A DNA stretch of 64,000 bases, taken from Spinacia oleracea. Lineage: Eukaryota > Streptophyta > Magnoliopsida > Caryophyllales > Amaranthaceae. The stretch is from contig NC_079487.1 of the NCBI RefSeq assembly GCF_020520425.1, positions 66,580,398 to 66,644,397 on the forward strand, in the 5' to 3' direction. Shown here piece after piece: positions 8,154 through 59,757 of this stretch (position 1 is its first letter; each line of letters opens with the position of its first letter). Both the position numbers and the translations under genes were made by a program. Below the pieces are notes generated by a model. The model made no database searches. It was not told the origin of the DNA and saw only the letters and a program-made list of their open reading frames with translations.

Positions 8154-9503
8154 TGTTAGGTTATGATACATATGACAATTCATAAATCATGCGGAAAAAC
8201 CATAAAGCCAGGAAAGCATATTATTTACACATAATCATTTAGCATAGTTTAGATGCATACTCTTTGTTGCGTGCCTTCCCTAGCTGCGCCCGAACCGAAC
8301 AAGAACAAGTCTTTAGGACTCCAAGTGTCGTCCCTCCGTAGATAGTCCACAGCACGTCCGGATCCGCCTTAAGCTTGACCAACTAGGATCGCCCTTAAGG
8401 TACTTAGAATTTTCGGCACATATAGGCAATTGTATGACTGAATTTTTGCTCTCAAAAATCACTTTTGAATACTTGAATACTCGATATAAATTGTGAGCAT
8501 TGATCACCTATTTATAGGGCATGGGTATCGGATATTAGAATCCTACTAGGAAACGATTTAGTGAATCTGAATTAATCTAAAATTCAATCACTTAATTTAT
8601 CTAGTAGACTTAGGAAATTAATCTTTATACGAATCCTAACCGATCAAGGTTTCGTACGCAAGCACAAACACTCACGCAGGCGCAGCAGCCCACGAGGGGC
8701 GCCATGCGCGCGCGCGCTGAGCCCAGGCCCAGCAAGTGCTCGTAGCCCACGAGGGGCGCGCGCCTGCTGGCCTTGCTCTCGCGTTTGGGCTTTGCTAGGC
8801 GTTGGGCTTAGCTTCGTGCTAGGCCTTGCATCTATCAAGCTCGTCCGATGTTTATTCGTACGATACGCTTCCGATTAAATTCCCGGTTTCCGGAATTCAT
8901 TTCCGATACGAACAATATTTAATATTTCCGATTCCGGAATCAATTTCCGTTTCGAACAAATATTTAATATTTCCGTTTCCGGAATTATTTTCCGATTCCG
9001 ATAATATTTCCGATTCTGACAATATTTCCGTTTCGGGCAATATTTCCGATTCCGGCAATATTTCCATTTCCGATAATATTTTCCGATACGTACCATGTTT
9101 CCGTTTCCGGAAACATCTACGACTTGGATAATATTTATATTTCCGATACGATCCATATTTCCGTTTCCGGCAATATCATCGTTTCCGGAGTATTCATTTC
9201 TTGCCTGTGACGATCTTAGCTCCCACTGAAACCAAGATCCGTCGATTCCGAATATCCATAGATGGAGTATTTAATGCCATTAAATACTTGATCCGTTTAC
9301 GTACTATTTGTGTGACCCTACGGGTTCAGTCAAGAGTAAGCTGTGGATTAATATCATTAATTCCACTTGAACTGAAGCGGCCTCTAGCTAGGCATTCAGC
9401 TCACTTGATCTGACTGAATTATTAACTTGTTAATTAATACGTAACCGCATTTATTAGACTTAACATTGAATGCATACTTGGACCAAGGGCATTATTTCCT
9501 TCA
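8154..9503 (-). mobile_element. Solo LTR of the nested Copia family, in the RT of the host element
   Basis: This 1350-bp copy matches the LTRs at 12578-13963 and 21662-23047. In plus orientation it starts TGTTAGGTTATG and ends ATTTCCTTCA. A perfect duplication GAAAG flanks it (8149-8153 and 9504-9508). No internal domain is present, so it arose by insertion followed by LTR-LTR recombination. A TATA box (minus, TATAAATA) lies at 8509-8516. It contains a TTCCG-rich tandem tract (about 8870-9190) and a GC-rich tract (8680-8830). It splits the RT just after the motif NFFL. Confidence 0.93.
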
Positions 9504-12577: not shown

Positions 12578-13963
12578 TGTTAGGTTATGATACATATGAC
12601 AATTCATAGATCATGCGGAAAAACCATTTAGCCAGGAATACATATTATTTACACATAATCATATAGCATAGTTTAGATGCATACTCTTTGTTGCGTGCCT
12701 TCCCTAGCTGCGCCCGAACCGAACAAGAACAAGTCTTTAGGACTCCAAGTGTCGTCCCTCCGTAGATAGTCCACAGCACGTCCGGATCCGCCTTAAGATT
12801 GACCAACTAGAATCGCCCTTAAGGTACTAATAATTTTCGGCACTTTTAGGCAAGATATGTGACTGAATTTTTCTCTCAAAAACTCACTTTGAATACTTGA
12901 AAACTCGTTATAAATTGTGAACCCAGGCCACATATTTATAGGGGTATGGAAAGAGAATTGGAATCCTACTAGGATACGAATTAATTAAATTAGAATCCTA
13001 GTGAAACTCTTATTTAATTAATTTATCAAATAGGATTAGGAATTTAATCATTAAACGAATCCTGTACGTTTTAGGTTTCGTATGTGAACACAAACACTCA
13101 CGCACGCACAGCAGCCCACGAGGGGCGCCATGCGCGCGCGCGCACAGCCCGAGCAACGCAGCTCACGACTGCCGCAGCCTTGGGCGCGCGCTGGGCCTGC
13201 CTTGCGGTGGGCCTGGCGCAGTCTTGGGCTGGCGTGTTGTGGCGCGCGTTTCCCTTGCTGGACGTGGGCCTGGCTTCGTGCTGGGCCTTCGTCTAGCAAG
13301 CTCGTCCGATGCTAATTCGTACGACGCGCTTCCGATTAATTTTCTGATTCCGGAATTCATTTCCGATACGAACAATATTTAACATTTCCGATTCCGGAAT
13401 TAATTTCCGTTTCGAACAAATATTTAATATTTCCGTTTCCGGAATTATTTTCCGATTCCGATAATATTTCCGATTCAGACAATATTTCCGTTTCCGGCAA
13501 TATTTCCGATTCCGGCAATATTTCTATTTCCGATAATATTTCCCGATACGTACCATGTTTCCGTTTCCGGCAACATCTACGACTTGGATAATATTTATAT
13601 TTCCGATACGATCCATATTTCCGTTTCCGGCAATATCATCATTCCTGGAGTATTCATTTCTTGCCTGTGACGATCTCAGCTCTCACTGAAACCAAGATCA
13701 GTCGATTCCGAATATCCATAGATGGAGTATTTAATGCCATTAAATACTTGATCCGTTTACGTACTATTTGTGTGACCCTACGGGTTCAGTCAAGAGTAAG
13801 CTGTGGATTAATATCATTAATTCCAATTGAACTGAAGCGGCCTCTAGCTAGGCATTCAGCTCACTTGATCTCACTGAATTATTAACTTGTTAATTAATAC
13901 TGAACCGCATTTATTAGACTTAACATTGAATGCATACTTGGACCAAGGGCATTATTTCCTTCA
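12578..13963 (-). repeat. 3' LTR of the nested Copia element
   Basis: In plus orientation it starts TGTTAGGTTATG and ends TTCCTTCA. A minus-strand TATA box (TATAAATA) lies at 12933-12940. A GC-rich block lies at 13090-13300 and a TTCCG tandem tract at about 13331-13640. A near-perfect palindrome lies at 13726-13748. The length is identical to the 5' LTR. Confidence 0.95.
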
Positions 13964-18815: not shown

Positions 18816-21646
18816 ATTAAAAACTACAATTGAAAAGAATAAACAAATAAATAACCATTCACAGTTTCTCTTAATAAACTTAAATTCTAGCATACATGCA
18901 TAATTCAATGTTTATTAAGCATTTTATTCAAGTTATGTGTTCCGGCAGGTGTGAATAAAATGATTCCAAGATACTAAAATCATTGAAGAACTAAGCACAG
19001 TTTGTCGACTTAATCCTAAAACATCTTAGGTAAGCAAAAGCCTTTTGCTAATAGTCTAGAAACTATTCTTGGTTGATAGGTATGTCTAAGAACTTATTAG
19101 GTAAACCTATCGATTTTGCCACGACATAAAAGGACTCCTTACTTATATCGTTGAGTTTCACCAAAACTAACATGTACTCACAATTATTTGTGTACCTTGC
19201 CCCTTTAGGACCAATAAGTAACACCTCGCTGAGCGAAAACTATTACTAGATTGATGTAAAGGATATCCAAGCAAGTGTATATTTTGGCATGGCACCTTAT
19301 AACTCAATTTTTAAGTTTGGAACTTAAGGCTCTTACTATGTTGGTTAGATTTTAAGTGAACTAAAATCCTTAATCATGCAACATAATCAAGCTTTTGATC
19401 TCATGCATTTTAAGACATATTTAAAAGCAATAAATAACTTAAAACATGCATAAGATAAATGTGATCTAGTATGGCCCGACTTCATCTTGAAGCTTCAACT
19501 TCAAAGTCCGTCTCGAAAATCTCTGTGGGAGGCACCATTTTCTTCAAATAGGATAAGCTATAATTAAAACTAATTACAACTATTTGATGGTACGCAGACC
19601 ATATTTGAATTTGAAAAACGACTTTGGTACTTTAGACCAATTACATTCAAATTAATGGTACACAGACCATATTTTCTATCCTATTTGGGCCATACTAGTC
19701 ACTTCATAACCTGCAAAACAGTACATATACAATATATACCATTCACCCATTCATTATCATGAATGGCCCACATAGCTGGTTAGTAAAACACATTATGCAT
19801 CACGTAAACATTTGCAGCAATTAATCAAGGGCACCAATAATCTACCAATTATTCAGTCCTTATTAATTCTAATCAAGTTGTTTTAACCTTAAGGATTTGT
19901 AGACCTAATCAAGAGTTTATGACTAAAAAGGGCTCCCACTCAAACCAATAAATTCATATGCTTTACTAATTTTAAACATAAAAATGTATTTCTAGTCTAA
20001 CCGGAAACATACAAATTTAATTAAAATTTAAAGCTCATATAAATTTATAATTGAATCCAAACGTTTAATTTAATTTCAGTCGTATTTAAATTAATTCATG
20101 ATTTTAATTTTAGTAAAATAATTAGAATAAATAAAATTTATTATAATTACAATATTCAAAATTAAAATCCAAGAAAATAATTAAAATTATTAATTTTAAA
20201 ATTAATTAAAATTACGTAAACTGAAAATTTCAAATTAAACATTCAAAACGATCTAATCGCAACGCAAACACCCTACGCATCGCACGCCCATGGGCCACAC
20301 GCACACAGCCATCGCTGGCCATGTGCGCGCAGCCCATGCGCTGCGTCGCATAGCTGCTGCTTCTACCCTTCGCAAGCCATCGCGCGAGCTGGTGCTCGCT
20401 GCGCGCGCGCCAGCGCTCGATGCACGCGAGCATGTGCTCGCTGCGCGCGCGCCAGCGCTCGATGCACGCGAACCATCGCTCGCTGCGTTCGTTCGCTAGC
20501 GCTCGCTGCACGCGGGCCAGCGCTCGCTTCGTGCACTCGCCAGCGCATGATGTGCGCGCTCGCTAGCGCTCGCTTGGTGCGAGCCAGCGCTCGCTGCGCG
20601 CGGCATCGACGCTGGGCGCAGCACTCGTGGCACGCGAGCTTGCGCTCGCTGCGCGCGAGGTTGCGCGCTCTTGCGCGAGGCAGTGCGCGTTGTGGCGCAG
20701 CTCGCTTGCTGCCCACACGCGACTGCCGTGCCTTGCCTTCGCCCATGCCCATTCGTCCATTGCTCATAGCCCACGACACAAGGCAGGGCTGTTGCCTTGT
20801 GCTCGTGCACCATGCCCTTGCTCATTGCATTCGTGCCGCATGGGCGACGAGCTCCCTTGCTCGTCGTCGCATGCCCGCACTATACAACACCCCTTAAGGG
20901 TAACACGTAGCGTCCATTGCTTTGTGCGTGCAAGTTATATGAACGAATCGCATAAAATTTAAAAAAAATTATATTTAAAATTAATGACAAATTAATAAAT
21001 TAATATTAATTTTATAATTTTAGGGCGAAAAATCGAAAATTTATTATTCAATTGATTTCCGATTAACATGGATTCAAGTCTAGGTCATAAAAATTTAAAA
21101 TTTATCATAAATTTACAATTTTTATGGTGGTTTTTAATCATAGGTATCTAATTAAATTATAATTAATTATGAAAATCAAATTAATTCTAAATTATTCTAA
21201 TTTTCAACAAATTAATCATAATTACAAATTAGATTGCATAATTAACAAGGCTAGGCATTCAAACTTGTTAAACATATACAGTAGGTCAATCAAAAATTCA
21301 AGATTTATCAACAAGAATCGCAAATATTTAATTTAACATCTTAAATTTACGAAATTTTGCATTCGAAAAACTAAAACCTTCGAAAAGTCATAGTTAGGCT
21401 TCGAATTTGAGAATTCTGGGTTCGAAAAGTCAAAATTTTAGAATGCCTTTTACATGCGGAATTGACACAAAAATCACTCGATTTGGATGAGTAACGAAGA
21501 AACTGCCGAAAAACTGCGAACGTATAATTAAATAAACGCAATTTGCAATTAATTAACAATTACGAAAATTAATCACCCCTTTTAATTCTTGCGAATTTGT
21601 AATATTTAACCATGTTCATGCAATTTAGATTATGAAAGTAATAAGA
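18816..21646 (-). other. Long 5' leader of the nested Copia element
   Basis: About 2.8 kb between the primer site and the gag ATG, unusually long for Copia. It is AT-rich except for a strongly GC-rich island at 20258-20940. Short frames on both strands inside the island look like by-products of its repeats. No recognised protein is encoded. Confidence 0.7.
20258..20940. repeat. GC-rich low-complexity island of GCGCTCGCTGCG-type repeats in the leader
   Basis: Dozens of variants of CAGCGCTCGCTGC and GCGCGCGAGC occur in this 0.7-kb island, surrounded by sequence with very low GC. A near-exact repeat of about 45 bp occurs at 20396-20442 and 20441-20490. Many words are self-complementary (AGCGCT, GCGCGC), so the RNA could be highly structured. 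The GC-rich block in the LTRs (13090-13300) has a similar composition. Confidence 0.8.
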
Positions 21647-21661: not shown

Positions 21662-23047
21662 TGTTAGGTTATGATACATATGACAATTCATAAATCATGC
21701 GGAAAAACCATTTAGCCAGGAATACATATTATTTACACATAATCATATAGCATAGTTTAGATGCATACTCTTTGTTGCGTGCCTTCCCTAGCTGCGCCCG
21801 AACCGAACAAGAACAAGTCTTTAGGACTCCAAGTGTCGTCCCTCCGTAGATAGTCCACAGCACGTCCGGATCCGCCTTAAGATTGACCAACTAGAATCGC
21901 CCTTAAGGTACTAATAATTTTCGGCACTTTTAGGCAAGATATGTGACTGAATTTTTCTCTCAAAAACTCACTTTGAATACTTGAAAACTCGTTATAAATT
22001 GTGAACCCAGGCCACATATTTATAGGGGTATGGAAAGAGAATTGGAATCCTACTAGGATACGAATTAATTAAATTAGAATCCTAGTGAAACTCTTATTTA
22101 ATTAATTTATCAAATAGGATTAGGAATTTAATCATTAAACGAATCCTGTACGTTTTAGGTTTCGTATGTGAACACAAACACTCACGCACGCACAGCAGCC
22201 CACGAGGGGCGCCATGCGCGCGCGCGCACAGCCCGAGCAACGCAGCCCACGACTGCCGCAGCCTTGGGCGCGCGCTGGGCCTGCCTTGCGGTGGGCCTGG
22301 CGCAGCCTTGGGCTGGCGTGTTGTGGCGCGCGTTTCCCTTGCTGGACGTGGGCATGGCTTCGTGCTGGGCCTTCGTCTAGCAAGCTCGTCCGATGCTAAT
22401 TCGTACGACGCGCTTCCGATTAATTTTCTGATTCCGGAATTCATTTCCGATACGAACAATATTTAACATTTCCGATTCCGGAATTAATTTCTGTTTCGAA
22501 CAAATATTTAATATTTCCGTTTCCAGAATTATTTTCCGATTCCGATAATATTTCCGATTCAGACAATATTTCCGTTTCCGGCAATATTTCCGATTCCGGC
22601 AATATTTCTATTTCCGATAATATTTCCCGATACGTACCATGTTTCCGTTTCCGGCAACATCTACGACTTGGATAATATTTATATTTCCGATACGATCCAT
22701 ATTTCCGTTTCCGGCAATATCATCGTTCCCGGAGTATTCATTTCTTGCCTGTGACGATCTCAGCTCTCACTGAAACCAAGATCCGTCGATTCCGAATATC
22801 CATAGATGGAGTATTTAATGCCATTAAATACTTGATCCGTTTACGTACTATTTGTGTGACCCTACGGGTTCAGTCAAGAGTAAGCTGTGGATTAATATCA
22901 TTAATTCCACTTGAACTGAAGCGGCCTCTAGCTAGGCATTCAGCTCACTTGATCTCACTGAATTATTAACTTGTTAATTAATACTGAACCGCATTTATTA
23001 GACTTAACATTGAATGCATACTTGGACCAAGGGCATTATTTCCTTCA
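21662..23047 (-). repeat. 5' LTR of the nested Copia element
   Basis: 1386 bp and collinear with 12578-13963 with about ten substitutions by eye. The TATA box (minus, TATAAATA) is at 22017-22024 and would start transcription toward the polyprotein. The palindrome is at 22810-22832 and the TTCCG tract at about 22415-22725. Confidence 0.95.

Positions 23048-40872: not shown

Positions 40873-40940
<68 letters not shown>
40873..40940. repeat. (TA)n microsatellite at the left edge of the Mutator-like element
   Basis: TA repeats with one TG interruption (around 40908). The facing tract at 48732-48778 suggests that one TA array was split by the insertion. Confidence 0.9.
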
Positions 40941-40943
<3 letters not shown>

Positions 40944-41045
40944 GGGGGATCCTGTGAAAATAGGTCCTTATGTGAGTATACTATTATATATGAGAATGAA
41001 TCTAATCCGTAGGATTAGATTCAATCTAATGGCTAGGATTAAAGG

Positions 41046-41290
41046 ATGAGAAAACCATCCACCCTCCCAATTAAAACCACGTTTCTTTCATTAATCCCCA
41101 CTCACTTTCTCTCTCTAAAACCTCCCTCTTCAATTTCTCTATCTCACAACTCGCGACTCGCCATTTTCTCTCTCGACATTTTCTCTCTCCTCTCGACAAA
41201 ACCGCCATCAAATCTCCAACAACAGTTGATCAATCTCCTTCTTCGTCGGTGTAAGGTAAATTCGACATCAATTGTTCTATATTTCTTCTC
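41046..41290 (+). promoter_or_regulatory. Pyrimidine-rich leader-like sequence near the left terminus
   Basis: TTTCTCTCTC-rich sequence lies just inside the terminal repeat, followed by a good donor (GTGTAAG then GTAAATTCG). It looks like a transcription start and 5' UTR reading inward. A comparable segment reads inward from the other end (48390-48570, minus strand). Confidence 0.35.
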
Positions 41291-41824
41291 TCCTTCTACA
41301 ATTTTCCCTAATTTTAACCTTATTTGCTCAATTAAAGATGACTAGAGCAGAAAAACAATTCAAATGACAAAGGTAAACAAAATACACAAATTTTTAACCT
41401 AATTCGAACTACTTTCTTTGTTTTTATACATTAATTGAAGTTATCTTTGTTAAATTTTGATTTTCAGGCAAAAAAAAATACTAAAAACCAGCAAAATGTC
41501 TAGAAGAACCATGAGAGTAAGTATTCAATGCTTTAATTTTAGCGAAGTTTTTGTAATTATTTTCGGAATTTTTCGGAATTTATTTTTGTAATTATTTGGT
41601 CTGCGAATTTGTGGATGTTTCTAGCGATTTTGCGAATTTTTATGTTCCTTATATTTGATCGTTGTTGCAATTGTGGATGTTCCGATATGAATTTTTAGTA
41701 TTTTTTGATAAGAATTTAATTTCTGATTTTCTGAATTAATTTGAGAATTTTAAGATATTTTTTCGATATTATGATGCTCTAAAACTAGTAGTTATATGCT
41801 ATGAATTTTTATGTTCACTGTAAT

Positions 41825-43080
41825 TGCATATGTTCTGAACTATATTTGCATATGTTCTAAACTATATTTGCATATGTTCTGAACAATAAGTGCATGTGTT
41901 ATGAACTATAATTTTACACATTCATTGAATAGGTTAGTAACAAGTGGCTTCGTAACTTATCTTATTGTGAGCTTTGAGTGTAACTGCTGGTTCAGAGATT
42001 TCACTTTTGTTCCTCTCCATTTGTTACATTGAATTTGGAGACACAAAAGGCTCCCTTGGGGCTGTAGTTGTGTAGTTTAGCTTTAGGTTTCTGTAAGTCC
42101 TACATTGATGTATAACAGTGCATTGATTGCCTCAGGGACACATATAGAGTAAAATGCAATAAGAGAAGTTCTTTCATGACCTGCATCTAATATTCAGTAT
42201 ACTAGAAGGCGCTTCAAGAGCTCAGTTTAGGAATGTGTCATATAGTTGAATTGAAAATGTAGTTGTTGGCCTGTTTCTCTGTTTTGAAAGTGTTTTTTAT
42301 AAGCTTTGAACAAAAAGTTCCAGCTTTGAATAACTAACTCATTTTTCAGAACAAGAGATATTATGGCCGAGTATTTTTACTACTCTATGTTAGGAAATGC
42401 TTGTCATAATATGTTGATTTTAGAGGTTGCCATGGGACAGGAATAAGCCCGGTTAGGGCGGTTTCCAGTTAACCTCTAAGCCGAGGTAGTTCAAGTTTGG
42501 AAATTAATGGACAAACTCATAATCAGTTGGTTCATGCCATAGGTTGGTTCTGGACTCAGTAGATATTAAAGTTTTAGAGTCTAGTCCTAATCTTGCTTAT
42601 GTACTAAAGTATCATTACATATGTTCTAATTATTATTGTATATGTTTTAATTACAATAGCATATGTTCTAATTATTATTGAATATGTTCTAGTTATTATT
42701 GCAAATGTTCTTATCATTATTGCATATGTTTTAAAGGTTTATACGAACTATATGGTATGGACTTTCATCTATATATGTTTCTTTGCATAGTTAGCTGCCC
42801 ACACTTGTCGGGATTTATAGATTTTCAAAGTATGCTTCTAAGCCTAATAAGGGAAATTGGAAAAGGCTTATGCTACATTATGATGTTGTTGGACATTGAT
42901 TATAACTAGCTGATAAGTTGGCTATTCTCTACTTTTTAGTGTATTAGGATAAGTATTTTTTATAAGAATTTAATTTCTGAATTTTTGAATTAATTTGAGA
43001 ATTGAGAATTTTACTCTTTTTTTCTTCTTCTAATTTTCGATATTTTATGATGTTCTAAGAGTAATAGTTATATGTTCTGA
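41825..43080 (+). repeat. Phased ATGTTCT arrays, left part
   Basis: Four copies of TGCATATGTTCTGAACTATATT-like units start at 41825, 41847, 41869 and 41891 (22-bp steps). Six copies of ATATGTTCTAATTATTATTG-like units start at 42619, 42640, 42661, 42682, 42703 and 42724 (21-bp steps). Two more are 22 bp apart at 43050 and 43072. Confidence 0.93.
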
Positions 43081-43197
43081 AGTCTTAAACAGAGGAAATG
43101 AGAATAAATGCACAAAACAACGAAGAAAATTGTCCTTCCATCACTTATAAAGGACATCATGCGCAATATTTGGTAAAATTTTATACTCTCAATACTT

Positions 43198-43930
43198 TAG
43201 AACATGAAGGTTAAGAATGTAGAACATGAAAGCTTACTGTTTAGAACAAAATTGTTTAATGATTAGAACATAAGTAATATTGGTAGATATATATGTTATT
43301 TGACTACACTTACCATTATTAGAGTAGGGGAGGTTTGAGCTGGAGTGACTGGACTACACTTAATATTATATTGCATAATGACTTTAGAACATGAAGGTTA
43401 AATTAAGAAAATGAAAGTTCACGGTTTAGAACAAATATATTTAGTGGCTCATAGTGTCAATCTTTTGGATATTGGCAATGGTTAATACTAGTTGTGGCTC
43501 ATGTTTGGGTAGAGTGGAAGGATAACTTTTTTAGTCCATTGCCTTTCTTAAAGAAGTGTACATTGCTTTGTAGAACATATAGCTTAACTGCTTAGAACAT
43601 ATAGCTTAACTGATTAGAACATATAGGAATAATGTATAGAACATATAGCTTCACTTGTTAGAACATATAATTTCAATTGTTAGAACATATATAGCTTCTC
43701 TTTTTATAACATTAAGTTTCACCTTATAGAACATTATTTTTTACTACGTATCACTAGTTTATAAAGTGATCAAACACTATTGTCGGAGTCCATTTGTTGT
43801 CCAATTATCGAAAAAACACTCTTAGCTGACATCCTTTCAAATATTGGGTAATATTTCATCATCTCAATTCTTTAGAATATGAAGGCTCACTTTTAAAAAC
43901 ATTAAGTTTCACCTATTAGAACATAATTTT
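43198..43930 (-). repeat. Phased TAGAACAT arrays, central part
   Basis: Motif starts at 43198, 43220, 43242 and 43264 (22-bp steps), then 43385 and 43427 (42 bp). Next come 43571, 43593, 43615, 43637, 43659, 43681, 43705 and 43727 (mostly 22-bp steps), then 43873, about 43895 and 43917. Between clusters the spacer sequence changes while the AGAACAT core stays. Confidence 0.93.
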
Positions 43931-43975
43931 ATATTGTTCTCTACATGTAGAGAAGCTATTATTTTTAGATATTTT

Positions 43976-45690
43976 ATGTTCTAAAATTCATAACAATATG
44001 TTCTAAAACTAGAAAATTATGTTCCAATGTTCTCTTCTTGTATCTAATATATTCCTGAATGTGCTTTGGGTCTGATTTTTAGCTTGTTTCTACCACAATT
44101 CAGGTCATGTTAGCTATGCTGTGTTTTCATGTGCAAAATCATGGGCTAATATAGTTGCATAGATTGGTGTTGTTCTTAAGTGGTTGTATAGCTGCTGGTG
44201 CATGCTATTTATTTTAATGTTTTGGGTCAGTCTGGGGTGGTATGATTCCTTTTATTGACTATATATTGGGCAACTGTTCTGCTATGTTTGGCTACTGCTA
44301 GCAGTTTTGTGTGTGTGGTGTTGTTGCAAGTAACGGTCGTCAATGCTTGATATTCTGGGACAATGTCTATTAGCTCAACTGGTAGAGCTTTGTGCGTTTG
44401 CACAATGATGTAGGTTCGAATCCTACATAGGCAACTCTTTGTATTCCATTTATGATATTAATTATTTCTTCTATTTGATGATTCTTTACTTTTGATTCAC
44501 TTATATTTAGTTTTGGATTTGTTCTACTTACTTTAGAACATATGTATAAATTTTTAGAACATTAGCCTTGGTTATAGAACATTAGCCTTGGTTTTTAGAA
44601 CATAATATCTAACACTTGAACTGAAGGCAGTTGTTTTTAGAGAAACTAGCCAGGGGGCAGGGAAGCATGAATGAGATGGCCAAGATGTATGACCAACATA
44701 ATTCTTCATTGGTGGAGTATGATAAGAAAGCACAGGTCTTGCATAATTGAGTTTATTGTCATCTAAATTATAGTTTTTTCTTTCTATGATATCAAATTTC
44801 AGAAGTGTATTAAATTTTTCTTTTTATGGTTGTTTGTTTATAACAAAGGTAAGTAATTCTTAGTCCATGTTCTAAAAAGTTGAACTTTTGTTCTAAATAT
44901 TGTCATGTATGTTCTAAACTTTAAATTATAATGTTTAGATGTAAATATAGAATGATTTCACTTTTTAATTTCTAAATTTAACTAAGTTATGATGTTTCTA
45001 CCACATAGGAGTAATTTGTTCTTAAACCTAATTTGAGCTTAACGAGTCTAACATGTAGTTAATCGAGCTTTGCTTAATTATTTGACGAATATATTTTTCG
45101 TAGGTTTATTATTGACATAACTAATGAGTTCTGACCGTGAATATTCTCACTTTAAAAATATTTTAAAGTCTTTCGCCCATGTTCTGAGAAATTGAACTTT
45201 TGTTCTAAATAGTGTGACATATGTTCTAAACGTTAAACATAACCTTTAGATATAAATAAAGAGTATTTTCACTTTTTATTTCTAAAGTCAACTTGTTTAC
45301 GATGTTTCTACCACGAGTAAATTAATTTGAGCTTATTCAGCTAATCGAGCTTAAAAAGTCAAACATGTAGAATTGAAAGTCAAAGGCTCACTAGCTTACT
45401 TAATGAGTCAAAAATATTTTAATGTCCTTCTTAGTCCATGTTCTAAAAAGTTGCACATTTGTTCTACATAATGTAGCATATGTTCTGAACTTTAAAGCAT
45501 TATAAATAAATATTGCTCTCACTTATTTTTAATTTCTAAAGTTAACTCACTTTTAGGACATACGCTTATGTTTTTTGATCATGAGATTATAACATTTTAG
45601 AAAAATAAATATTGTATGATGTCTTTCATGTTATGAAAAGATGTACATCATGTTCTAACTTATGATACGTCATGTTCTAATTTGTGTAGC
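43976..45690. repeat. Phased ATGTTCT/TAGAACAT arrays and a longer repeat of about 260-310 bp
   Basis: ATGTTCT starts at 43976, 43998 and 44019. TAGAACAT starts at 44534, 44555, 44575 and 44596. ATGTTCT-type triplets start at 44867/44888/44909, 45179/45200/45221 and 45438/45459/45480 (exact 21-bp steps), then 45628/45650/45672 (22-bp steps). The three 21-bp triplets sit in a longer direct repeat that shares GAACTTTTGTTCTA, ATTTTCACTTTTT and GATGTTTCTACCAC. Confidence 0.9.
44364..44434 (+). tRNA. tRNA-like sequence, possibly a pseudogene (anticodon uncertain)
   Basis: A 71-nt cloverleaf can be drawn. The acceptor stem TGTCTAT pairs with ATAGGCA (one G-T), the D stem GCTC with GAGC, the anticodon stem TTGTG with CACAA, and the T stem GTAGG with CCTAC around TTCGAAT. 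Box A (TAGCTCAACTGG) and box B (GGTTCGAATCC) are good. The anticodon loop has only six bases (CGTTTG), one short of normal, so no anticodon is assigned. It lies inside the Mutator-like element with no SINE body recognised around it. Confidence 0.55.
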
Positions 45691-46225
45691 TATTGTTTTG
45701 AAGAAGATTATTTCAGAAAATACGAATAGGAGTAATATGAGGAGTGATGTGTAAGAATTAAAGGAAGATCGGACACAAGATGAAACATAGATGATCCCCA
45801 AACCCAAAAGTTGTATGATAACTTTCAATTGTATCTATAATAATCTTAATAAACAAAAGAAACACTCGTAATAAAGTTGTATTTAATACATTCGATTGCG
45901 ACCGAGCATCAATTGGACGATCTACCAGCAACAAGGGAAGAAAACTTAAGAAGCTTAGGATCAACCTGCAAACAATTCATCTCATTTTCATCCAATATTA
46001 ACATAACTTGAATATTCTCATGCATAGGGATTAATAACATCAAGATAACCAAATTCCTGAATGAAGAACTCATCCTACCTTCACCATATCCGCTCCAAAT
46101 TGGCAGTCCTAACTCGAAATCGGGATCTAAACCAAACCAAGTCTGTTCGAACTACTACATTGTATATGTTTATGTTTGGATCTGTCTTTATGTCATCTAA
46201 TTCCTGCTTGTATTTCCGGAATATT

Positions 46226-46474
46226 TCAGTCCCTTTTTTTACCTTGTAACTTGCTTAAGAACTCGACATTCTTAAACTCTGATAACATTCTCCCAACTTC
46301 TGCCACCAGTTCCGACAGTTCGGGTGCTAATTTAGTTGTTGCCTCATTGTCGTTCCTGCAGCTACCCTCATGATCATACTGAGCTATACCTTGTGAAACC
46401 AGGTTTCTGAAATCTGTTGGTGATAGTTGTGGAATCAAGCGAGGCCCCATGTTTATAGCATAGGTTACCACCAA
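46226..46474 (-). other. Exon-like open segment, unrecognised
   Basis: The minus-strand frame includes TYAINMGPRLIPQLSPTDF and ELSELVAEVGRMLSEFKNV, with more ordinary codon composition than its AT-rich surroundings. A possible acceptor precedes it (near 46479) and a possible donor (GTATAG) lies near 46396. It could be a captured exon of a host gene within the Mutator-like element. No family was named. Confidence 0.35.
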
Positions 46475-47122
46475 GGGACCTGCATGATTTTAGTTATCAC
46501 AATGAGCAATGTAATAAACTAATCCTTCTTCTAAGTAGAATATAAAATCCAAAATAGGGAGGTACTAGTTTAGAAATGCGTTACAAGATCAATAGAACCA
46601 AGAACAGTTCCCTCATATACGACATCAATAGCACCTAAGGTCAAAAAGAGAAAACTCTAATATTCTAATCTTTTTTACTTATGATCTAATATTGTTCCTT
46701 GTGTTCTAAAAAAAGCCATTATGTTCTAAAAAAGTTATGCCATTTTTAACCTCTAATATTTGCAAGGAAGTTTCATCAATTATCAAGTAAATTAAATTCT
46801 ATATAGAGAACAATATAAGTATCTTGGGCATTGCAATCACAAAAGCTAGCTTGAGGGTGGGAAAGTCTACACGTCTATATAAGACCCCCATCAAACACAC
46901 GCTTCTCTCCAAGTAAGATTGACGGGGGACTCAAATCTCATATGTTGCTTCCACTATAATCTACCATCGAAGGGCACTCATGAGTAGACCTTGTGTTGGA
47001 CCTTGTTGGCCTCAACCAAGCATGACTACTGGAGGAGGTGTTGTCTAGCTACTAAACCAACTGATATAGGTCTTCCCATACAACCAAACCCAAAAACTAG
47101 CTCAAAGATGGGAGAGTCAATA

Positions 47123-47188
47123 GCACGCACACACACACACCCACGCGCACACACACGCGCGCGCACACACACAAACACACACACACAA
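47123..47188. repeat. (CA)n/(CG)n microsatellite
   Basis: CACACACACAC with CGCGCGC interruptions, inside the Mutator-like element. Confidence 0.9.
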
Positions 47189-47521
47189 TCTCGACATGGA
47201 AGTTAGAAGTATACACCTTACAATTGGAATGTAACGAAGGACCACTGCGAAGCTGAGATTTAGGTTTTTCGAACTGGATAGAAATATAGGTAGGACTTAT
47301 AAATGCAGTCGGGCGTACGCATATTGAGTTGTGTGTTCGCTAGCTCATTTCTACAACACAATCACTAATTCTTGTTATTTCAACACGAAATTCATTCTCT
47401 CGTTCCTCCAGGACTTAATATAGAAATTACTTCAGGAGTAACAACTACATTTGAATTAGAACAACTTGCATATCGTTCATTATTCACAACAAAATCTAGA
47501 AAAGAATAAGAAAAAACAAAT

Positions 47522-47871
47522 CAGAACATATATAATGTTTCTATAGAACATTGGGTTAAAAATGCAGAACATGTAAAGCAATAATTCAGAACAGCAGAAA
47601 CAGTGTCACAGGAAAATAGAGACAACTATACAGAACACTAGAAGCAATTATTAAAAAACATGAGTATTACTCAGAAAATTTAAACGATTATGCATAAGAT
47701 GTAATGCAATAATTCAGAACATCAAAAACAATTTACAACTTGCATATTGTTCATTATTCACAACAAAATCGAGAAATAATAAATAAATAAAACAATTCAG
47801 AACATGTATAATGTGTACATAGAACATTGGGTTACAAATGCAGAACATTTAAAGCGATTATTCAGAACGTT
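47522..47871 (-). repeat. Phased CAGAACAT arrays, right part
   Basis: Starts at 47522, 47544, 47565, 47587, 47631 and 47715 fit a 21-22 bp lattice with weaker copies at some intermediate positions. A second set starts at 47799, 47820, 47841 and 47863. Two further copies near 46701 and 46721 are in the opposite direction. Confidence 0.85.
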
Positions 47872-48728
47872 AAACATCAGACACATTAATAAGAAAACTC
47901 ACTCGATTCCGTCAATGATGAGGACGAACTATGATGAACTTCCGATGACATTGCTCACAGAGAAAGAGTACTGATCCGTAAATCAAAAAGCATGAAACAC
48001 ACACATGATTAAATACGAATTTGAACACATAAATTAAGAAAACGAATTGTCATGAACCATTCGATAATAAAAAAATCAAAAACAAAAACAAATCCAAAAC
48101 AAAAATCAAAAATCAAAATAGAAAACAAATCAGAATATCAAAAACAAAACAAATCAATTATGAATTCAACAATCCAGTAATCAAAAACAACTCGCGAAAT
48201 TGAAAATAAAAAAGCAGGTCACAAATTCAACAAATCATGAATAAGCAATTCGGTAATCAACAATTAGATAATTGCAATTTGATAATAATGAAATCAAAAT
48301 CGACAACCAAAACTAGGTCAAAAATTGAAAAATTATCAAGCAAAATACACAAATCAGAATTGCAAAAATGAACGAAAATTGATAAAATACCTTGGAATAA
48401 GAAATTTGATGAATGTATTCGAGAATATAATTGAATTCTGAAGCAAATTGTAGATGAATTTGACCTTGATTAAGGTCCAGTAATGGCGGCAAAAGAAAAG
48501 AGAGAGGAGAGAAAACAGGGAGATTGAGAAAACATAAGTTAGAGAGAGAAAGAAATAAACGTGAAAAGTGAAGGATATGGGCTGGGTATATCTTGAACAA
48601 ATTTACAAAAATGCCATTAGTAATCCCTTGATTTTTGGCTATTAGATTAGAAACGATCCAAAGGTCAAGATTTATTCTCACATAGGAGAGTGTTCTCACA
48701 TAAAGGAGGTGTTCTCACATGAGCCTTC

Positions 48729-48731
<3 letters not shown>

Positions 48732-48778
<47 letters not shown>
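48732..48778. repeat. (TA)n microsatellite at the right edge of the Mutator-like element
   Basis: About 47 bp of TA repeats between the element's right end (CTTCCTC) and block B copy 3. Confidence 0.92.
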
Positions 48779-48782
<4 letters not shown>

Positions 48783-58355: not shown

Positions 58356-59757
58356 TGTTAGGTTATGATACATATGAATAAACATAAATCATGCGGAAAA
58401 ACCTTAATGCCAGAAAACATATTATTTACACATAATCATATAGCATAATTTAGATGCATACACTTTGTAGCGTGCCCTCCCTAGCTGCGCCCGAACCGAA
58501 CAAGAACAAGTCTTTAGGACTCCAAGTGTCGTCCCTCCGTAGATAGTCCACAGCACGTCCGGATCCGCCTTAAGCTTGTCCAACTAGAATCGCCCTTAAG
58601 GTTCCTAGGAATTTTCGGCTAAAATGGTTGCAAGTGTTTGGCTGATTTTTGCTTCAAAATCTTACCTTTGAATACTTCAATTTTGTGTATAAATCTGTGA
58701 CCCTAGGCACCTATTTATAGAGTTATGATAAAGGACTTATAATCCTATTAGTATACTAATTTAGTTTAATTAGAATCCTGCTAGGACTCTATTAAATAAA
58801 CTTTATCTATTAGGATTAGGATTTAATCATATGACAAATCCCGATAGCTTTAGGATTCGTGTAACACGCACACGAGCAACGCACAAGCACCGCACGCCCA
58901 TGCGCAAGCCTTGCGGCCCACGCACAGCGCACAGCGCTGAGGCCCACTTGCTCGCAGCCCATCGCTGATCTCGCGTGCACCAAGGCTTGGCTGGGCTGGC
59001 TTTGCGCTGGGCCTGGTCGAGGCTTGGCGTGTTATTGGATGCGTTGGCTTGCTGGGCGATGGCCTGGCTTCGTGCTGGGCCTTCGTCTAGCAAGCCTCGT
59101 CCGATGCTAATTCATACGATACGCTTTCCGATTAAATTCCAGATTCCGAAATTCATTTCCGATACGAACAATATTTAATATTTCCGATTCCGAAATTAAT
59201 TTTCGTTTCGAACAAATATTTAATATTCCCGTTTCCGGAATTATTTTCCGATTTCGATAATATTTCCGATTCTGACAATATTTCCGTTTCCGGGAATATT
59301 TCCGATTCCGGCAATATTTCCATTTCCGATAATATTTTCCGATACGTACCATGTTTCCGTTTCAGGCAACATCTACGACTTGGATAATATTTATATTTCC
59401 GATACGATCCATATTTCCGTTTCCGGCAATATCATCGTTTCTGGAGTTCATTTCTTGCTTTTGACGATCTCAGCTCCTACTGAAACCAAGATCCCTCGAT
59501 TCCGAATATCCATAGATGGAGTATTTAATGTCATTAAATACTTGATCCGTTTACGTACTATTTGTGTGACCCTACGGGTTCAGTCAAGAGTAAGCTGTAG
59601 ATTAATATCATTAATTCCACTTGAACTGAAGCGACCTCTAGTTAGGCATTCAGCTCACTTGATCTCACTGAATTATTAACTTGTTATTTAATACTGAACC
59701 ACATTTATTAGACTTAACATTATATGCATACTTGGACCAAGGGAATTATTTCCTTCA
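58356..59757 (-). mobile_element. Solo LTR (1402 bp) of the nested Copia family, in the LINE
   Basis: Plus-orientation ends TGTTAGGTTATG and TTATTTCCTTCA. A perfect 5-bp duplication TAGTG flanks it (58351-58355 and 59758-59762). It is collinear with the LTRs at 8154, 12578 and 21662 but more diverged in the GC-rich block. The TATA box (minus) is at 58712-58719 and the palindrome at 59520-59542. The LINE resumes on each side, so it inserted after the LINE. Confidence 0.93.

Follow-up and report, generated by a model that had tools for sequence, protein, structure and literature searches.

A stretch of 64 kb from the spinach genome (C1:66580398-66644397, hereafter the window, to which positions refer unless a contig or locus is named) raises the question of why a transposable element with no detectable coding part carries dozens of copies of one short word at nearly constant steps. 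The element, at 40941..48731, is a non-autonomous Mutator-like element (MULE), and the word is the 8-bp core TAGAACAT/ATGTTCTA, arranged in tandem arrays of 21-22 bp units. Three issues are involved: (i) whether the arrays are a selected binding platform; (ii) what binds them; and (iii) what the binding is for. The first we answer with considerable assurance, the arrays being very probably such a platform. On the second we lean, less firmly, towards a binder encoded by the element itself. As to the third, anti-silencing, suggested by analogy with the VANC proteins of Arabidopsis VANDAL elements, is given marginally less than an even chance.

All 32 exact cores of the window lie within the element (span 41852-47827), and none occurs in the other 56 kb. 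When one mismatch is allowed, the element holds 66 cores (32 exact and 34 with one mismatch, or 8.5 per kb), and the remaining 56 kb holds 76 (1.35 per kb). When the element was shuffled 200 times under a first-order Markov model, exact cores averaged 0.65 (maximum 4), cores with up to one mismatch 13.8 (maximum 26), and same-strand pairs 20-23 bp apart 0.06 (maximum 2), compared with 32, 66 and 37 observed; given the shuffle mean, about 13 of the 34 one-mismatch cores could be due to chance. The pairs are 21 bp (n=17), 22 bp (n=17) or 20 bp (n=3) apart, with multiples at 41-44 bp. An earlier note on this DNA, made from its letters alone, had described about sixty copies in phased arrays of 21-22 bp, and both its count and its spacing prove right, with 34 pairs at those two distances. 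Two of the one-mismatch cores, at 41272 and 41774, fall just outside the interval that it described and may be chance.

From left to right, the arrays begin on the minus strand with three units at 22-bp steps (41830..41881), seven units at 21-22-bp steps (42599..42733) and a pair 22 bp apart (43050..43079). The plus strand then carries four units at 22-bp steps (43198..43271), a pair 42 bp apart (43385..43434) and eight units, seven of them exact and the first six at 22 bp (43571..43734). A minus-strand pair 22 bp apart (43976..44005) is followed by four exact plus-strand units with steps of 21, 20 and 21 (44534..44603), after which the minus strand holds three sets of three units at 21-bp steps (44867..44916, 45179..45228 and 45438..45487), a pair 22 bp apart (45650..45679) and four units at 20-21-bp steps (46660..46728). 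Two plus-strand arrays of three units, each with steps of 22 and 21 (47522..47572 and 47798..47848), complete the series. The mapped strands bear out the orientation flips reported between clusters, and the run 43571-43681 consists, exactly as claimed, of six exact cores at 22-bp steps. A second run, given as starting at 42619 with uniform 21-bp steps, exists as an array; its starts were 2 bp off, its first step is 22, and several of its units have one mismatch (actual starts 42599, 42621, 42642, 42663, 42684, 42705 and 42726; steps 22, 21, 21, 21, 21, 21).

The arrangement recurs throughout the 894,210,420 bases of genome searched. The pattern TAGAACAT-N14-TAGAACAT was found at 838 + 837 places on the two strands, versus 1 + 1 for the reversed motif; pairs at N13-14 (exactly 21-22 bp) number 5,142 + 4,839 = 9,981, versus 5 + 6 = 11 for the reversed control; and pairs at N4-34 (12-42 bp) number 6,494 + 6,179, versus 215 + 276. 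Among the first 100 places of the N4-34 search, which favours no one spacing, 60 are at 21-22 bp, 24 at 41-42 bp and 16 at other distances; all fall within the first 9 Mb or so of C1, a few long arrays are among them, and they are not 100 independent events. The same density in unrelated DNA, which the earlier note had named as a refutation of its reading, did not appear in either comparison, the rest of the window and the genome-wide reversed motif being far sparser. Long 21-bp arrays were also seen at C1:2399532-2400426, 2660595-2661483 and 11221163-11221808.

For comparison we fetched 20 loci of 10 kb (the first places of the N14 search), a sister-family locus (L051) and the end of a member of a distant family (L052). 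In these loci, themselves selected by the motif, the core is the most frequent 8-mer after TATATATA/ATATATAT, with 533 seen and 13.8 expected. The window element has full-length or partial relatives in L033, L036, L040, L043, L044/L045 and L046/L047, and shorter matches in others.

The borders of the window element are set by ends that match the ends of other copies and by (TA)n tracts on either side (40874..40940 and 48732..48779). Its left terminal region (40946..41030, plus strand) has the form GGGATCCTGTGAAAATAGG..TGTGAGTATA..TATGAGAATG, with degenerate terminal repeats that lack AGAACA. The right terminal region (48675..48720, minus strand) has TGTGAGAA three times at intervals of 18-19 bp, twice in the form GAGAACAC, and these repeats have AGAACA in common with the internal core. 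The two ends give an inverted match of 73% over 89 columns, in a (TA)n context that hides any target duplication. GGGG adjoins the left end, and with (TA)n on both sides the element has the marks of MuTAnT-like TA-targeting elements. The right arm (47381..48666, minus strand) aligns in reverse to L051:1-1239, the 5' region of the sister-family transposase gene, with 79.6% identity over 1316 alignment columns, and stops just short of the FAR1 exon. No tblastn match to transposase or antisense-gene pieces was found in the element (five proteins and joined exons at E<=1; a charged piece, P0002, at E<=1e-5). Because the right arm corresponds to the transposase 5' region and no coding part was detected, the window copy is, as judged by alignment, a non-autonomous derivative that has kept the 5' region of the transposase gene.

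The gene itself is intact in the sister family. At L051 (C5:39213200-39219200) two exons join into 735 residues with no stop, and the product matches PF03101 (FAR1, E 9.6e-17), PF10551 (MULE, E 1.2e-20) and PF04434 (SWIM, E 5.1e-6). A MULE transposase with SWIM and an N-terminal FAR1 domain is what marks FAR1-bearing (Jittery-type) MULEs, an assignment for which we used the features of group 36 in the available text of PMC6446971. The Mutator-like identity proposed for the window element thus holds. Another copy, at L031/L032, is bordered on the left by (TA)n, has FAR1 and SWIM exons (PF03101, PF04434) and is interrupted by a LINE; its middle piece (P0006) gave no Pfam match. At least 11 genome copies contain a 539-residue open frame that is 71-72% identical to the L031 query (148 of 1,143 candidates were scored), and these eleven long frames suggest, from sequence, a recent spread. 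The stretch fetched at L049 ends 1.8 kb short of a transposase match of 90%. A search of solved structures with the transposase piece gave no match.

The distribution of cores with respect to genes is distinctive. In three coding copies, where exons make up 45-47% of the sequence examined, exact cores in exons number 0 of 78 and one-mismatch cores 19 of 206, counts for which the exon limits were in part judged by eye and in which the clustered cores are not independent. An intron of the L051 transposase gene (2008-2232) is filled by about ten GTTCT-type units of about 21 bp. At L051 all 17 of 17 exact cores are on one strand, though its two genes run in opposite ways; at L031/L032 and L049 cores are on both strands. 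We considered a signal read in RNA, which the single-strand cores across the oppositely oriented L051 genes disfavour.

A first alternative is that the arrays have no function, and that slippage and unequal exchange have spread a neutral unit of 21-22 bp. This we consider very improbable, although part of the evidence is what it predicts: the units are tandem, and spacers of adjacent units (agreement 0.38-0.70) are somewhat more alike than spacers from different loci (0.38). Two elements of about 2 kb (~L034:6984-8987 and ~L037:4369-6220) consist of ends, 34 and 29 exact cores, and a core-free stretch, with the cores in a satellite-like 21-bp array whose spacers are conserved. Duplication alone is nevertheless insufficient, as the motif is kept more often than the spacers. 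In ordered pairs of seven sequences, which overlap and are heavily non-independent, 310 of 463 exact cores were unchanged in the sequence aligned to them, compared with 24,750 of 66,740 other 8-mers (core-overlapping ones included) and 1,688 of 4,068 8-mers of the same composition without CG/CHG; retention exceeded that of the same-composition 8-mers in 39 of the 42 pairs. Equal decay of core and spacer, the other refutation named in the earlier note, is not what these figures give. A second comparison agrees. Over 62 non-autonomous alignments, 311 of 459 sites occur in both sequences of a pair, versus a mean of 29% and a maximum of 46% for 60 permuted motifs, and in coding copies 176 of 266, versus 28% (maximum 44%); in the single alignment of the window element with L051 the figure is 5 of 8, which some permuted motifs equal or better (maximum 71%). 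At core positions the agreement between adjacent units is 0.79-0.98, a figure partly built in by picking units for near match to the core, which does not affect the spacer values. Around the 1,455 GAACA words of the fetched loci, the information at most spacer positions is 0.01-0.06 bits, rising slightly at neighbouring cores. The neutral account must also accommodate the avoidance of exons by exact cores, the flips of cluster orientation within one element, and the spacing, which remains 21-22 bp in 122 of 344 neighbour pairs whose spacers are distinct.

A second alternative is that the phased, AT-rich cores work through DNA structure, by favouring or excluding nucleosomes, or that a host transcription factor reads them, so that the arrays behave as promoters or intron enhancers. 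Spacing near two helical turns, the AT-rich context and the location in introns and 5' regions are consistent with such a role. The earlier note had proposed that the spacing puts each core on the same face of the helix, a claim that does not stand apart from the length of the duplicated unit: a general rule of helical phase is not supported, as the 104 spacer-distinct pairs left after dropping 240 of 344 at near-unit distances or their multiples show no 10.5-bp phase (Rayleigh p 0.49), which is also as neutral duplication would have it. A structural effect would not need what is seen, namely a specific 8-bp word that is kept among spacers near background information. Within the window the exact core is confined to the element, which counts against this alternative; one fetched locus (L035, two cores) had no match to the window element and could not be tied to the family. 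The orientation of L051 cores relative to transcription, which differs between its genes, likewise counts against an RNA-level version of this role. On balance a host or structural explanation is quite unlikely.

A third and more serious alternative concerns the ends of the elements. Across families the left ends are similar (GGGGAGGGATCCGGTGAGAACACC or variants), (TA)n adjoins most of the borders seen, and many ends contain AGAACA words 18-19 bp apart. A scan of 22 loci and the window for terminal arrays was positive in 10 of these 23 sequences; in the window the hit is only at the element's right end. The internal cores could then serve the element's FAR1-type transposase, as sites that arose from its terminal ones or came to match them, and would concentrate, titrate or autoregulate that protein. 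The end mask with which MuTAnT elements were mined in Medicago, GGGGTTTGCTAGAACA, ends in TAGAACA (PMC4486113, available text). It is because of AGAACA in many ends and in this mask that we regard the transposase as the main rival reader. In keeping with it, the left end of a MULE family of 50% identity (L052:991-1401, C5:110409900-110411300), with (TA)n adjoining, has GAGAACC terminal repeats instead of GAGAACAC, and neither AGAACA nor TGTTCT was found in the roughly 410 element bases seen. The core also keeps company with close relatives of the transposase. On C1 below 68.9 Mb, among ten transposase loci in the matches listed, three have an identity of at least 80%, and for these the nearest listed core pair is 1.4, 0.2 and 6.9 kb away (one of them is the query locus itself, which its cores had singled out); for the seven of at most 51% identity it is at least 67 kb away, where the core list, made up of 100 N4-34 places and 41 of 100 N14 places, is incomplete and the distances are upper bounds. 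Against a transposase reader are the different spacing (21-22 bp internally, 18-19 bp at the ends), the different bases flanking AGAACA, and the absence of AGAACA from three degenerate left ends (L036, L043 and the window element). Domesticated FAR1 proteins, moreover, bind CACGCGC (PMC13306707, available text). These points leave the alternative unlikely, though with appreciable weight. We know of no need in transposition for dense arrays in the introns of both genes, which again weighs against it.

The second gene of these elements runs antisense to the transposase, and pieces of it are common to L049, L031/L032, L002 and L050. Its N-terminal part is highly charged; the rest includes a domain weakly matching the plant mobile domain (PMD) and Ulp1/SENP-like exons. 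The last contain putative catalytic His/Asp/Cys motifs, picked out by eye; the joined exons had no Pfam match. At L051 the Ulp1-like pieces, of 47% and 39% identity, are on the strand opposite the transposase. The joined exons found six relatives, three Spinacia proteins and three quinoa proteins at 41-43%; of the Spinacia proteins one is named for a plant mobile domain and two for the ubiquitin-like protease family, and P0130 is probably the L049 gene itself. Relatives P0131-P0133 bear the UniRef name 'Ubiquitin-like protease family profile domain'. Two AlphaFold models of the antisense domain have a mean pLDDT of 38. A VANC gene of the DUF1985 type beside the arrays was also considered and rejected, none being found among the listed loci checked: 18 DUF1985 loci on C1 below 68.9 Mb (among 149 matches listed; 150 of 893 candidates scored) are each at least 31 kb from the nearest listed core pair.

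Considering these results together, the reading that we prefer is that the arrays may be a cis-acting anti-silencing platform of FAR1-type, TA-microsatellite-associated spinach MULEs, VANC-like in its working, a reading that has, with this function, a little less than half of our confidence. A reader encoded by the element is favoured because the anatomy matches that of VANC targets as given in the available text of PMC5735166 and PMC10398659: a short kept word, in tandem, at two-turn spacing, in noncoding DNA, present in non-autonomous copies and accompanied by a second gene. An element-encoded protein would bind the repeated AGAACA core at two-helical-turn spacing; the most likely candidate would be the antisense protein, with its weak PMD match and Ulp1-like part, and the next the transposase. 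Many bound copies along introns and intergenic DNA would prevent methylation and silencing of the element's noncoding DNA, acting in cis and, for non-autonomous copies like the window element, also in trans, in a mode resembling VANC action on VANDAL elements.

Several observations weigh against the preferred reading. Where selection on the core is concerned, the aligner places core on core within arrays, which adds to the dependence among the pairs; the core was retained less than same-composition 8-mers in 3 of 42 ordered pairs; per-base identity is 0.883 at core sites and 0.817 elsewhere, and the best permuted motif reaches 0.905; the conserved spacers of L034 and L037 are what recent tandem duplication would give; and the 10.5-bp phase score of the core (0.50) is exceeded by at least 1 of 25 permuted motifs (maximum 0.59). 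With regard to the reader, most terminal repeats seen have AGAACA in common with the core, which makes the transposase a competing binder. The PMD match, found in four proteins, has E values of 0.004-0.042, below the Pfam cut-off, and is absent from five others scanned (P0130, P0131 and P0133-P0135). The SENP1 match (E 3.2e-4) was obtained with exons joined by eye and covers residues 20-107 only, a stretch that excludes the putative catalytic motifs, and antisense proteins P0002-P0004 and P0128-P0135 gave no DUF1985 or DUF287 match. Finally, in Arabidopsis related VANC proteins and motifs diverge together, whereas in spinach one core is common to two families with antisense identity of 39-47%. 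Rates of evolution speak in part for the preferred reading: in Arabidopsis, VANC is far less conserved than VANA (PMC5735166, available text), and between the spinach families antisense pieces at 39-47% compare with 56% for the FAR1, 66% for the SWIM and 72% for the MULE part of the transposase (pieces from different reference copies). Relative to the FAR1 part, however, the antisense gene shows no clear excess of divergence, and it was for this reason that our confidence in anti-silencing was lowered slightly.

A more specific and rather unlikely scenario is that FAR1/Jittery-type MULEs evolved an anti-silencing system of their own, independent of DUF1985, in which the AGAACA word of the ends, read there by the transposase, was recruited into phased internal arrays and a PMD-Ulp1 antisense protein became the reader, with copies made of ends plus array living off the system. 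If the preferred reading is true, anti-silencing through motif arrays is not confined to VANDAL-type MULEs and occurs also in FAR1-type MULEs with terminal repeats, in the spinach family, where motif and accessory protein are both different. The family might also bear on a Kochia element, likewise FAR1-bearing, that is linked to EPSPS duplication. Even with the transposase as binder, the common AGAACA word permits a clear and cheap binding test. Spinach, whose genome holds some 10,000 phased pairs, would then offer a second large natural system in which to relate array density and helical spacing to specificity. Motif sequence, density and helical periodicity were reportedly found by Sasaki in 2022 to set the specificity of VANC proteins, with non-autonomous copies among their targets.

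Some other features deserve mention. Within the element, core-poor stretches at ~45680-46660 and 46729-47457 contain small open reading frames (ORFs; e.g., 46226-46489, minus strand); seven window ORFs had no Pfam match at E<=0.1, and the stretches may be captured host DNA, as in Pack-MULEs. A tRNA-like gene lies inside the element at 44364-44434 (plus strand; Rfam tRNA, 52.4 bits), to which ARAGORN assigns no amino acid and only a two-base anticodon; copies of 65-67 bp, 83-89% similar, are present in several other fetched loci. A LINE-type retrotransposon (L032:1062-6230; RVT_1, zf-RVT, DUF4283) separates the antisense gene from the distal arrays of the L031/L032 copy. Elsewhere in the window, four copies of one complex TTCCGATTCCG-type tandem array (8886-9148, 13336-13608, 22420-22692 and 59132-59404) are perhaps parts of one retrotransposon family, and at 20381-20657 there is a GC-rich 21-bp tandem repeat (CGCGCGAGCCAGCGCTCGATG), in contrast to the AT-rich average of the window.

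How, then, do the spinach elements compare with known systems? No paper on motif arrays in FAR1-type or spinach MULEs was found by title or abstract opening, in searches that did not include the motif letters. FAR1-type transposases are known from the Jittery group, described in the available text of PMC6446971 as having FAR1 but no PMD, with PMD genes occurring in VANDAL, MUDR and some other plant MULE groups; a FAR1 transposase together with a PMD-like antisense gene is a combination that does not appear in that paper's table as available, our placement being by domain content. The spinach elements resemble MuTAnT and AutoMuTAnT of Medicago in the (TA)n target, the GGGG terminus, the Jittery-like transposase and the end mask, and differ from them in that the available text on those elements (PMC4486113) mentions a single ORF and no internal motif arrays. 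Among chenopods, a 16-kb element adjacent to EPSPS in Kochia is similar in gene content, with an FHY3/FAR1 gene (FAR1 DNA-binding, SWIM) and a gene of the ubiquitin-like superfamily (PMC6808082, available text).

The closest parallel is with VANC and VANDAL (VANC21, VANC6), which are also MULEs with a short motif in tandem in noncoding DNA, including, in the available text of PMC5735166, the introns of accessory genes and the region upstream of the transposase gene. The spinach motif is TAGAACAT, whereas VANDAL motifs are YAGTATTAY or AGTTGTCC/AGTTGTAC; the spinach transposase has an N-terminal FAR1 domain and the accessory gene shows no DUF1985/DUF287; and the spinach elements have terminal repeats and, where borders were seen, lie mostly in (TA)n. 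The VANDAL parallel drawn in the earlier note is close as regards arrays in noncoding MULE DNA; we do not claim membership in the VANC family, because DUF1985 and DUF287 were looked for in the antisense gene and not found. VANDALs that carry KIU (Kaonashi) also recognize motifs in noncoding DNA, and their VANC-type genes are likened to the spinach accessory gene by domain description, KIU having a Ulp1 domain and the spinach gene a putative Ulp1-like part; KIU carriers differ in being non-TIR MULEs (PMC13317346, available text). More broadly, in the available text of PMC10398659, MURA acting on MuDR ends and TnpA acting on Spm involve no FAR1-type MULE, and in both the action of the protein is accompanied by loss of methylation from its own element, the kind of effect that the arrays of the spinach family may serve.

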